A DNA stretch of 64,000 bases from Sapientia aquatica (lineage in GTDB: Bacteria; Pseudomonadota; Gammaproteobacteria; Burkholderiales; Burkholderiaceae_D), in the NCBI RefSeq assembly GCF_004358105.1, contig NZ_SMYL01000002.1, positions 62,001 to 126,000 on the forward strand, in the 5' to 3' direction. This document shows, piece after piece, positions 24,394-27,091 of the stretch (position 1 is its first letter; each line of letters begins with the position of its first letter). The translations under genes and the position numbers were made by a program. Below the pieces are notes generated by a model, which ran no database searches, was not told where the DNA came from, and was given only the letters and a program-made list of their open reading frames with translations.

Positions 24394-24474
24394 TAGCAAG
24401 CTAGACCGCTTCCCCGTTACAATAGCGCTTTCTATTTTTCAGCGTTTGTGGAAATCACAAGCCGATTGCACTCC

Positions 24475-25860
24475 ATGAAAGTTCGCACCCGTTTCGCTCC
24501 CAGTCCCACCGGTTATCTGCATTTAGGCGGTGCCCGCACAGCCTTGTTCTCCTGGGCGTTTGCTCGTCATTTTGGCGGCACGTTTGTATTACGCATCGAA
24601 GATACCGATTTAGAACGTTCCACTCCAGAAGCGGTACAAGCCATTATCGAAGGCATGCAATGGCTGGGATTGCAGCACGACGAAGGTCCGTTCTATCAAA
24701 TGAAACGCATGGATCGCTATTCCGCTGTGTTGGCAGAAATGCTGGGTGCAGGCACTGCCTACCATTGCTATTCATCGCCAGAAGAAGTTGAAGCGATGCG
24801 TGAAAAGCAGCGTGCTATTGGTGAGAAACCGCGCTATGACGGCACTTGGCGTCCGGAGCCGGGCAAGACCTTGCCCGCGATTCCCGCTGACCGCAAGCCT
24901 GTCATTCGTTTCAAAAATCCGTTGGAGGGTGAAGTGACTTGGGACGATGTAGTCAAAGGTCAAATAACCATCGCCAATCGTGAAATGGATGACCTGGTTA
25001 TCGCTCGTCCTGACGGCACGCCGACTTACAATTTTTGCGTAGCGGTGGACGATTGGGATATGCAAATTACCCACGTTATTCGTGGTGACGATCACGTCAA
25101 CAACACGCCACGTCAAATCAATATTTTGCTGGCACTCGGTGCAACCTTGCCGAAATACGGACATGTGCCCATGATCCTCGGCGCGGATGGCGAGAAACTG
25201 TCTAAACGTCATGGTGCTGTGAGCGTGATGGATTATCCAGCGCAAGGTTATTTGCCCGAAGCGATGCTCAATTATTTATCGCGTTTAGGCTGGAGTCACG
25301 GCGATGATGAAGTGTTTTCGATGGAGCAAATGTGTAGCTGGTTTAATTTAGATCATTTATCCAAATCGCCCGCGCAATTTAATCCAGAAAAGCTCGCTTG
25401 GCTCAATAATCATTACATCAAGTTGGCCGATAACAAACGCTTAGCCGATTTGATTAAACCTATCATGCACGAGGCGCAGTTTGATGGCGCCCCCGATTTG
25501 GAAGCAGTAATTGCATTGCTCAAAGAGCGCGCCAATACGACCGTTGAGTTAGCCAATAGCGCGATGCTGTTTTACCGCCAACCGCAACCGGAAGCGGCAT
25601 TATTGGCTCAACATTTAACCGATGCAGTGCGACCAGCCTTGCAAGCTTTTGCGGCCCAACTGGTCACAGTCACTTGGACTAAAGCCGATATTTCTGCCGT
25701 AATGAAATCGACCTTAGCTGAGCATGGATTAAAGATGCCACAATTAGCAATGCCGCTGCGTTTATTAATCACTGGCCAATTGCAGACGCCATCGATCGAT
25801 GCAGTGCTCGAATTGTTTGGTCGTGAGGTGGTGTTAAGCCGCATCAATCAAGGGCTGTAA
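24475..25860 (+). CDS. gltX: glutamyl-tRNA synthetase
   Basis: Class I aminoacyl-tRNA synthetase charging tRNA-Glu. The HIGH-like motif is in [15 protein letters not shown] (16-19) and the KMSKS-like motif is K241-L-S-K-R245. 461 residues from ATG 24475, which matches the family start [13 protein letters not shown]; a GTG at 24448 would add nine unneeded residues. TACAAT at 24418-24423 may be its -10. Its substrate tRNA-Glu is encoded 0.6 kb downstream. Confidence 0.95.
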
Positions 25861-25928: not shown

Positions 25929-26118
25929 ATTGCGCGTTGATTTTTTTTGGAACAGCCTTGATTGCCTGCCGTGCTGCGCGTCAAGCGGATGCGGTTTGAA
26001 AATTATCCGAAAAGAATCATTTTATTTATTTTGATCGAATCGGTTTTACCCAAATCGGCAACACTAATCAGCTCAACGAAAAATACGCAGTGAACCGCTA
26101 AAAACGGGAGAAAAAACT

Positions 26119-26147
26119 TGTAACGCACAGCAAGTTTTGCTATAGTC
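26119..26147 (+). promoter_or_regulatory. promoter of tRNA-Ala
   Basis: TTGTAA (26119-26124), 17-bp spacer, TATAGT (26142-26147); predicted start near 26154, about 9 bases before the mature tRNA. Confidence 0.7.
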
Positions 26148-26162: not shown

Positions 26163-26238
<76 letters not shown>

Positions 26239-26416: not shown

Positions 26417-26492
26417 GTCCCCATCGTCTAGAGGCCTAGGACATCACCCTTTCACGGTGAGTACAGGGGTTCGAATCCCCTTGGGGACGCCA
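26417..26492 (+). tRNA. tRNA-Glu (TTC)
   Basis: Complete 76-nt cloverleaf. Acceptor stem GTCCCCA/TGGGGAC, anticodon arm TCACC/GGTGA with loop CTTTCAC (anticodon TTC), T arm AGGGGTTCGAATCCCCT, discriminator G and encoded CCA. Its last 21 nt are copied three more times downstream in the tandem array. Confidence 0.97.
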
Positions 26493-26502
26493 GTAAAAAA
26501 AG

Positions 26503-26536
26503 AAAACCGTTATGCCAACGCATAGCGGTTTTTTTT
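26503..26536 (+). terminator. terminator of repeat unit 1
   Basis: AAAACCGTTATGC and GCATAGCGGTTTT pair (one G-U) over loop CAAC and end in eight T. Strong intrinsic terminator 10 bases after the tRNA CCA. It is A/T-flanked on both sides and could also work on the minus strand. Confidence 0.9.
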
Positions 26537-26654
26537 CGCCCATACGTAGCGAAGCACTGCTTCGCGGTCTTGGGATTCGAAGGGTGCCGCATACCGGCGG
26601 CAGCGCGGCCCGCAGAATGTGGGCGAATCCCCTTGGGGACGCCAGTAAAAAAAG

Positions 26655-26688
26655 AAAACCGTTATGCCAACGCATAGCGGTTTTTTTT
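26655..26688 (+). terminator. terminator of repeat unit 2
   Basis: Identical copy of the unit-1 hairpin and T run, exactly 152 bp downstream. Confidence 0.88.
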
Positions 26689-26803
26689 CGCCCATACGTA
26701 GCGAAGCACTGCTTCGCGGTCTTGGGATTCGAAGGATGCCGCATACCGGCGGCAGCGCGGCCCGCAGAATGTGGGCGAATCCCCTTGGGGACGCCGGTAA
26801 AAA

Positions 26804-26837
26804 AAAACCGTTATGCTAACGCATAGCGGTTTTTTTT
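26804..26837 (+). terminator. terminator of repeat unit 3
   Basis: Same stem as unit 1; the only change within the hairpin is in the loop (TAAC for CAAC). Eight T follow. Confidence 0.88.
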
Positions 26838-26954
26838 CGCTCATGCGTAGCGAAGCACTGCTTCGCGGTCTTGGGATTCGAAGGGTGCCGCATACCGGCG
26901 GCACCGCGGCCCGCAGAATGTGGGCGAATCCCCTTGGGGACTCCAGTAAAAAAG

Positions 26955-26988
26955 AAAACCGTTATGCCAACGCATAGCGGTTTTTTTT
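26955..26988 (+). terminator. terminator of repeat unit 4 (partial unit)
   Basis: Same stem and loop as unit 1 with eight T. Last recognisable part of the array before homology is lost. Confidence 0.88.
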
Positions 26989-27091
26989 CGCCTAAAGCCA
27001 GATAAGCTTTGCTTCGCGGCTTTATAAAGCTGGCTCAATGGTAGCCAGAGGAATAACTAGGTTGATTAAGTTGATCAAGTTGTAAATCCGA

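Follow-up and report, generated by a model that had tools for sequence, protein, structure and literature searches.

A tandem tRNA-tail array behind a tRNA-Glu gene of Sapientia aquatica as a probable member of a Burkholderiales family of TLR-like structured elements

The closest described systems are the tRNA-linked repeats (TLRs) of Escherichia coli; according to PMC8144298, their first description dates from 1978, and in 2021 they still lacked a known function. The same source counts 22 TLRs at ten E. coli loci, with a tail identity of 18–19 bp. Those named RrA, RrB and RrF (at rrnA, B and D) lie between the terminators T1 and T2 behind a stable RNA, a copy of whose 3′ end closes the element. 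They are described as read-through products that are processed and bind Hfq and CsrA, and as conserved in Enterobacteriales; T1 terminates 87% of the transcripts, and RNase E has been suggested as the cutter at the repeat (PMC8144298). For RtT, a tandem GA motif has been named in PMC7657543. Another RNA whose source is the 3′ portion of a tRNA operon transcript is the sRNA 3′ETS-leuZ; RNase E produces it, its pairing partners are RyhB and RybB, and the description in PMC8144298 mentions no tail copy.

A check of E. coli K-12, covering 23 tRNA genes and one 5S gene, found exact 18-nt tail copies outside tRNA genes for eight tRNAs (tyrT, tyrV, lysT, lysW, lysY, lysZ, lysQ and lysV); the 18-nt test missed the known rrn repeat because that repeat overlaps the 5S end. 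The TLRs at tyrT/tyrV and in the lysT operon (RF00391, RtT) sit behind a tRNA singly or in tandem, have hairpins inside and end in the tail copy. An inverted piece of the tail also occurs within the unit, 10 nt long at tyrV and 9 nt at lysQ and lysV. At lysT, lysW, lysY and lysZ this piece is just 5 nt, unlike the arms of the Burkholderiales elements described below, and since inverted pieces of 6–9 nt are also found near E. coli tRNAs that have no tail copy, the arm is weaker in E. coli. RrA, RrB and RrF differ further, as they follow 5S rRNA and an inverted piece of the 5S end of at least 6 nt is absent within 260 nt.

The window analyzed here is a 64-kb stretch of the Sapientia aquatica genome, and all genes and elements named in it are on the forward strand. 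An open reading frame at 24448–25860, which from its sequence we take to be gltX (glutamyl-tRNA synthetase), lies upstream of a tRNA-Ala/tRNA-Glu pair. The tRNA-Ala (ggc) at 26163–26238 is preceded by a promoter-like site (26118–26146), a consensus match at 9 of 12 positions, and the tRNA-Glu (ttc) at 26417–26492 ends in a 21-nt, CCA-ending tail at 26472–26492. TRF reports a single array in the window, at 26472–26992, with a period of 152, 3.5 copies and 95% matches. This agrees with the starts of the tRNA-Glu tail at 26472, within the real tRNA, and at 26624, 26776 and 26925, a spacing of 152, 152 and 149, and bears out the tandem repetition of tail and terminator reported in the first-pass annotation. 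The tail array behind tRNA-Glu is real and well above chance: with up to 2 mismatches the 21-nt tail occurs four times in the 64 kb, versus never in 100 dinucleotide shuffles of the window.

The four tails are thus present as first described, but the further claim of a 21-nt tail with CCA at the head of every unit holds in part only. The sole exact extra copy is that at 26624–26644, with CCA; the other two have 1 mismatch in 21 each, which at 26925–26945 leaves the CCA in place and at 26776–26796 changes the last base from A to G, so that this copy ends in CCG and the CCA is lost. Each copy does have its own terminator, with a hairpin and a T run behind every tail (26499–26536, 26651–26688, 26800–26837 and 26951–26988; one unit was folded). 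A simple terminator scan of the window listed none of these four hairpins, perhaps because their stems extend into the A/T tracts. Behind the last of them, at 26989–27019, is a remnant resembling the start (hairpin I region) of a further unit, with 88% identity over 26948–27019, terminator included. Three open frames of 80–104 aa, at 26436–26744 (−), 26512–26826 (+) and 26662–26904 (−), cross the array; they are not likely to be genes, and would be by-products of the repeats and of the antisense strand of the tRNA.

Copies 1–3 differ in 9 alignment columns, which amount to six substitutions and one 3-nt deletion. In the terminator region there is no substitution in the stem and one in the loop, and the deletion falls in the A tract before the stem. 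The observation that substitutions avoid the terminator stems is therefore correct as a count but weak, since by simple arithmetic (about 22 stem bases per 152-base unit) chance alone would keep all six out of the stem in about 39% of cases. With so few differences among the copies, the copy number in the window reads as probably recent and perhaps neutral. The extra copies probably arose by recent tandem duplication of a single functional unit, and copy number at this array is probably labile.

The main feature of the unit, missed at first reading, is the content of what had been called an 85-nt spacer. Between a terminator and the next tail the unit runs through hairpin I, the arm GGGATTCG, hairpin II, hairpin III and CGAATCCC, the last being the start of the tail copy, and in the predicted fold of the window sequence GGGAUUC pairs with GAAUCCC and encloses hairpins II and III. 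In element 1, hairpin I is predicted at 26549–26565 and the core at 26570–26633 (model R2 match, 69.8 bits), with the two arms at 26572–26579 and 26624–26631 and a G26612–U26620 pair in hairpin III; the cores of elements 2 and 3 match R2 at 26722–26785 (70.4 bits) and 26871–26934 (76.1 bits). Rather than a spacer, this is a conserved structured element, in which hairpin I is followed by the T-arm of the tRNA in inverted copy, then by hairpins II and III, and last by the tail copy.

The pairing in this element is that of a structured RNA. In the MAFFT alignment A2, which has 48 distinct rows and no structure fitted, 96.6% of the cells pair versus 80.2% when shuffled, there are 176 double-change cells versus 49.2, and sliding the partners brings pairing down to 45% or less. 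The larger alignment A3 (113 distinct rows) was fitted to the model, and the unfitted A2 agrees with it: 95.6% of the cells pair versus 77.8% in shuffles, double-change cells number 471 versus 125, and the signal is again lost on sliding. On such evidence the element reads as a structured RNA. It is fair to point out that folding energy gives modest help and in this respect speaks against the RNA reading, with a z of −1.46 versus shuffles for the 109-nt element alone; the 152-nt unit, terminator included, has −4.29.

In hairpin III, columns 46 and 73 of A3 form a G-U pair in 101 of the 105 rows, and in alignment A4 in 74 of 77, while double changes are seen at 45-74 (33/105) and 48-71 (38/105) and the inner neighbour 47-72 is invariant; the helix has further G-U pairs, and no A-C in either alignment. 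A G-T mismatch would not stay fixed in a palindrome maintained at the DNA level or made perfect by template switching, and selection on the sense RNA is thus the better reading of the fixed G-U, with sequence-specific binding a possible alternative cause of the pattern. Four loci (L207, L208, L209 and L213) have short variants, with matches of 48–51 nt and without a normal hairpin III, two of them without a nearby tRNA; these are possibly decaying or freed elements.

The loop of hairpin III bears on the proposal, made for E. coli RrA/B/F, of a sponge for CsrA/RsmA. RrB binds CsrA, as stated in PMC8144298, and among the 173 matches with a readable hairpin III, 56 have the loop GGA. The loop letter varies, however, with GAA in 52, GCA in 45 and GTA in 15 of these matches and GAA in 3 of 3 copies in the window, so that GGA is not a conserved feature. 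We rejected the sponge as a general explanation on these counts, and regard it as highly improbable here.

The inverted arm, in turn, changes in step with the host tRNA. Removal of identical sequences left 156 elements, 133 of them with a tRNA, and 121 once 12 had been dropped; in 75 of the 121 the arm forms all 8 Watson-Crick pairs with the tail of its own tRNA, versus a shuffled mean of 24.7 and a maximum of 39 over 2000 shuffles. The outermost pair is T-A at Ser-cga (28/33), G-C at Glu (10/15), C-G at Asp (47/52) and T-A or A-T at Ser-gct, and an inner position is T-A at Ser and Glu but C-G at 42 of 52 Asp elements. Among the exceptions are the elements at the species' own tRNA-Asp (CGGGAATC versus GAGTCCCG) and the window itself, with an outermost pair of T-C. 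Extended to the acceptor side, arms of all types match their own tRNA at a mean of 8.50 of 12 positions versus 7.18 for other tRNAs. For tRNA-Glu an acceptor-side arm finds no support in the window, which counts against the RNA reading, the Glu mean of 7.0/12 being at the background level of 7.08 for shuffled arms of all types; the window arm likewise makes 17 of 21 pairs with its tail where foreign tails average 16.9. With one insertion allowed, a test with separate filters (n = 147), 94 arms pair at 18 or more of 21 positions, versus 783 of 2399 comparisons with foreign tails, and in 78 of these 94 the insertion is at tail position 9 or 10, approximately at the T-stem/acceptor junction. The arm alone is not diagnostic, since a 9-nt inverted T-arm with 1 mismatch is also found near three tRNAs of the same genome (Trp, Gly and Met) that lack a tail copy.

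As for the company these elements keep, 185 of 217 model matches have a tRNA on the same strand within 700 nt upstream, in a set that counts some genomes twice and several members of one array. The hosts are tRNA-Asp (79), Ser-cga (41), Glu (23), Ser-gct (17), Ser-gga (16) and Leu-cag (6), with one case each of Gly, Thr and Ser-tga. For 14 of the 32 matches without a tRNA, the available sequence begins no more than 300 bases away; the rest are far members of arrays or solitary. In the deduplicated set, 112 of 133 elements are within 130 nt of the tRNA, with a median of 77. Over 18 nt, 102 of the 185 tail copies are exact, 20 differ at one position, 2 at two and 58 at four or more, and 3 are not measurable. 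By position the elements are placed as TLRs are, behind a tRNA on its strand, single or tandem, and their tails typically correspond to the last 18–19 nt of the upstream tRNA, exactly so for the window copy at 26624.

The array type is not special to the window; related elements occur behind tRNA genes in many Burkholderiales. Within the genome itself, two of 46 tRNA genes have an exact 18-nt tail copy downstream outside tRNA genes, the tRNA-Glu of the window and a tRNA-Asp, and at the other 44 the best downstream tail has at least 5 mismatches. That tRNA-Asp locus (L195, G000:C11:885800-887300) has two elements and a decayed third, before a gene that from its sequence we take to be prpB-like; a second tRNA-Asp locus (L196, G000:C19) has a decayed element (R2 E 2.1e-5) that keeps the arm and has lost the tail copy, which has 7 mismatches. 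Altogether the genome has six model matches, three of them in the window. In the genus, tRNA-Glu is followed by an intact array in this genome, by a decayed element in G003 (L049) and by none in G002 (L048); among the matches listed for model R1, the same-genus relatives G003 and G004 appear and G002 does not.

A DNA search of 39 genomes, own included, matched 25, mostly at tRNA-Glu genes themselves, several of them in tandem. Several apparent tail arrays at tRNA-Glu in relatives turned out to be full tandem tRNA-Glu genes and were discarded; the search also found tail-only copies, and a similar core with a different tail behind tRNA-Ser genes. A search by pattern brought up 94 of 195 family genomes, the own one among them; many of these matches lack the hairpin and are probably coding sequence. 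Model R1 was built from 50 elements at loci picked by eye for a clear hairpin, and for this reason favours tRNAs whose tails have GAATCC. At E 0.01 it found matches in 70 of 116 family genomes (own included), in 52 of them below 1e-10. The 46 family genomes without a match count against the RNA reading, with filters that lose weak matches. In the order R1 matched 20 of 300 genomes, six of them of the own family and the own genome included, and in the class the wider model R2 matched 2 of 321, the own genome and one weak match. A scan of named genomes returned 105 stretches, and the 80 listed, which went into model matching with 18 others, bear names that we take for Burkholderiales, among them Massilia, Herminiimonas, Herbaspirillum, Duganella, Burkholderia and Cupriavidus, the lineage having been checked for two species. 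A short core pattern matched 29 of 274 class genomes (own included), and at 20 such loci, one of them own, a tRNA within 400 nt upstream was found at the own locus only; a core pattern of the E. coli type was found in 3 of 200 phylum genomes, which belong to a single family.

Arrays longer than that of the window exist behind tRNA-Asp, with five elements at 177-nt spacing at L197 (G053:C1) and four at 189-nt spacing in Pseudoduganella buxea (L270), and at L102 (G083:C329) a contig ends in repeated elements. Short-read assemblies may break at arrays of this kind, and copy numbers may therefore be underestimated.

Could the elements be small mobile or selfish units that insert at the 3′ ends of tRNAs and duplicate their target, which would then be the tail copy? 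The order tail-element-tail does resemble attL/attR, one core is found at several tRNAs, and the arms match the resident tRNA. Hairpin I is also slightly more alike between different tRNAs within a genome (0.529, 19 pairs) than between genera (0.467, 1696 pairs), and the pairs L107/L108 and L131/L132 are close. But hairpins that share a genome and not a tRNA are no more similar than those that share a tRNA across genera, the similarities being 0.580 versus 0.629 for hairpin II and 0.529 versus 0.522 for hairpin I (19 versus 382 pairs), and the window unit has no match in plasmids. The neighbourhoods are shared as well. At 10 of 12 other fetched loci, Glu-type elements lie behind a gltX-like C-terminus (two of the loci, L101 and L243, are of one genome). 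The start of a gene presumably like ppiD, mostly at 40–60% protein identity to the query from L198, is found downstream of 30 of the 77 Asp-type matches that had 300 nt or more of DNA behind them (each member of an array counted separately), in Oxalobacteraceae, Burkholderia and Cupriavidus; the own tRNA-Asp array sits elsewhere, before the prpB-like gene. We consider mobility quite improbable. These comparisons speak for elements that have stayed long at their respective tRNAs, where they are duplicated and lost locally.

Neutral tandem duplication deserves more attention. On this account, recombination or slippage between tail repeats makes and loses copies that have no function, and it would sit well with the few differences among copies 1–3, with the decayed or missing element at tRNA-Glu in same-genus relatives, and with the 58 of 185 tails that have four or more mismatches, a decay that also counts against the RNA reading. 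The first-pass annotation had itself proposed that a lack of transcripts beyond the first terminator, together with a lack of conservation in any relative, would make the array a neutral duplication. The element turns out to be conserved in relatives, which speaks against pure neutrality, while copy number looks labile. The covariation, the arms that follow the tRNA and the fixed G-U are not expected of neutral sequence, and neither is a tRNA-Asp/ppiD-like locus with the element in two families. We therefore find neutrality unlikely for the element as a whole; it may still account for the copy number.

Two of the functions first suggested fare less well than the third. Graded termination, in which stacked terminators insulate downstream genes and the remainder is a passenger, has in its favor the four terminator-like hairpins of the window and a T-rich run between the tRNA and the first element in 120 of 147 cases by a crude test (5 T in 6). 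By the same crude test, the run is missing in the other 27; moreover, the E. coli lysT-operon elements sit between tRNAs of one operon, and the part that covaries is not the terminator. It could be part of the explanation at most, and as the whole of it is very unlikely. Two points weaken the idea that the tails are decoys for tRNA 3′-end enzymes: the predicted fold pairs the start of the tail copy, and one of the three copies has lost its CCA. Release of a small RNA would fit best.

How close, then, is the likeness to E. coli, where the first annotation had pointed to the rtT repeats? The architecture corresponds to that at tyrT/tyrV and in the lysT operon, where a tail copy also ends a hairpin unit, but the models do not cross-match. 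RF00391 matches the E. coli tyrT and lysT elements; it has no match at six Burkholderiales loci, none at its gathering score of 45 bits in 60 family genomes, own included (two weak matches were seen), and is absent among the Rfam matches in the window at E up to 5. Conversely, R2 found none of the E. coli TLRs. Rfam matches in the window, e.g., Bp2_287 (minus strand, 26.4 bits versus a cut-off of 70), were set aside as below their cut-offs, and on sixteen Burkholderia loci Rfam gave only tRNA matches above gathering scores. By eye, a CGRCCCG follows a hairpin at E. coli tyrT, lysT and rrnB, near the CGGCCYG of the Burkholderiales elements, and in E. coli one more hairpin stands ahead of the tail. 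The likeness would thus be one of shared layout only, though the elements fit the description of a TLR and may work like one. In the open-access literature, which leaves out most subscription journals, we found no record of elements of the TLR type outside Enterobacterales, and the available text on B. cenocepacia sRNAs does not mention them. The remark that no case on tRNA-Glu in betaproteobacteria was known stands to this extent, whereas the array is not unique, given the tRNA-Glu elements in other genera.

We are inclined, with some reservation, to view the array as three tandem elements from a family in Burkholderiales whose members work like E. coli TLRs, giving an RNA by read-through from the tRNA promoter that is cut by the tRNA 3′-end machinery. 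The read-through, processing and Hfq/CsrA binding of RrA/B/F lend this support by analogy. Polymerase would pass the terminator behind the tRNA, or transcribe the element directly where none intervenes, and the tail copy would offer the tRNA 3′-end maturation enzymes a cutting site that releases a short structured RNA, the amount of which would track transcription of the tRNA. By pairing with the tail copy, the inverted arm may keep it from pairing with the real tRNA and misfolding it, and hairpin III, with its fixed G-U and GNA loop, may be the part that a protein or another RNA recognizes. What the sequence shows is the position, the tail copy, the folded core, the match of arm to tRNA and the G-U; the read-through, the cutting, the guarding by the arm and the recognition of hairpin III are steps that we infer.

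A bolder and rather doubtful version would have the element be an RNA built around the mirror of its own tRNA, with the T-stem re-created by the inverted strand and hairpin I at the acceptor/T-stem junction. In good cases at Ser, Leu and Thr, the mirror would extend over the acceptor stem too, through CCA. The released RNA would be a tail mimic with a buried CCA, kept matched to the host tRNA by selection, that reports or regulates the synthesis or 3′ maturation of that tRNA; the class would be order-wide, with the E. coli repeats as a distant branch or a parallel invention.

A second, order-wide TLR-like set with its own conserved core would bring comparative power beyond that of the enterobacterial set alone. 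The Burkholderiales set separates what is fixed, namely the G-U of hairpin III and the pairing of arm and tail, from what drifts, such as the letters of the hairpins, the terminators and the copy number, and in doing so it names the bases to mutate. Repeats of tail and terminator behind tRNA genes should thus not be dismissed at once as duplications or integration scars.
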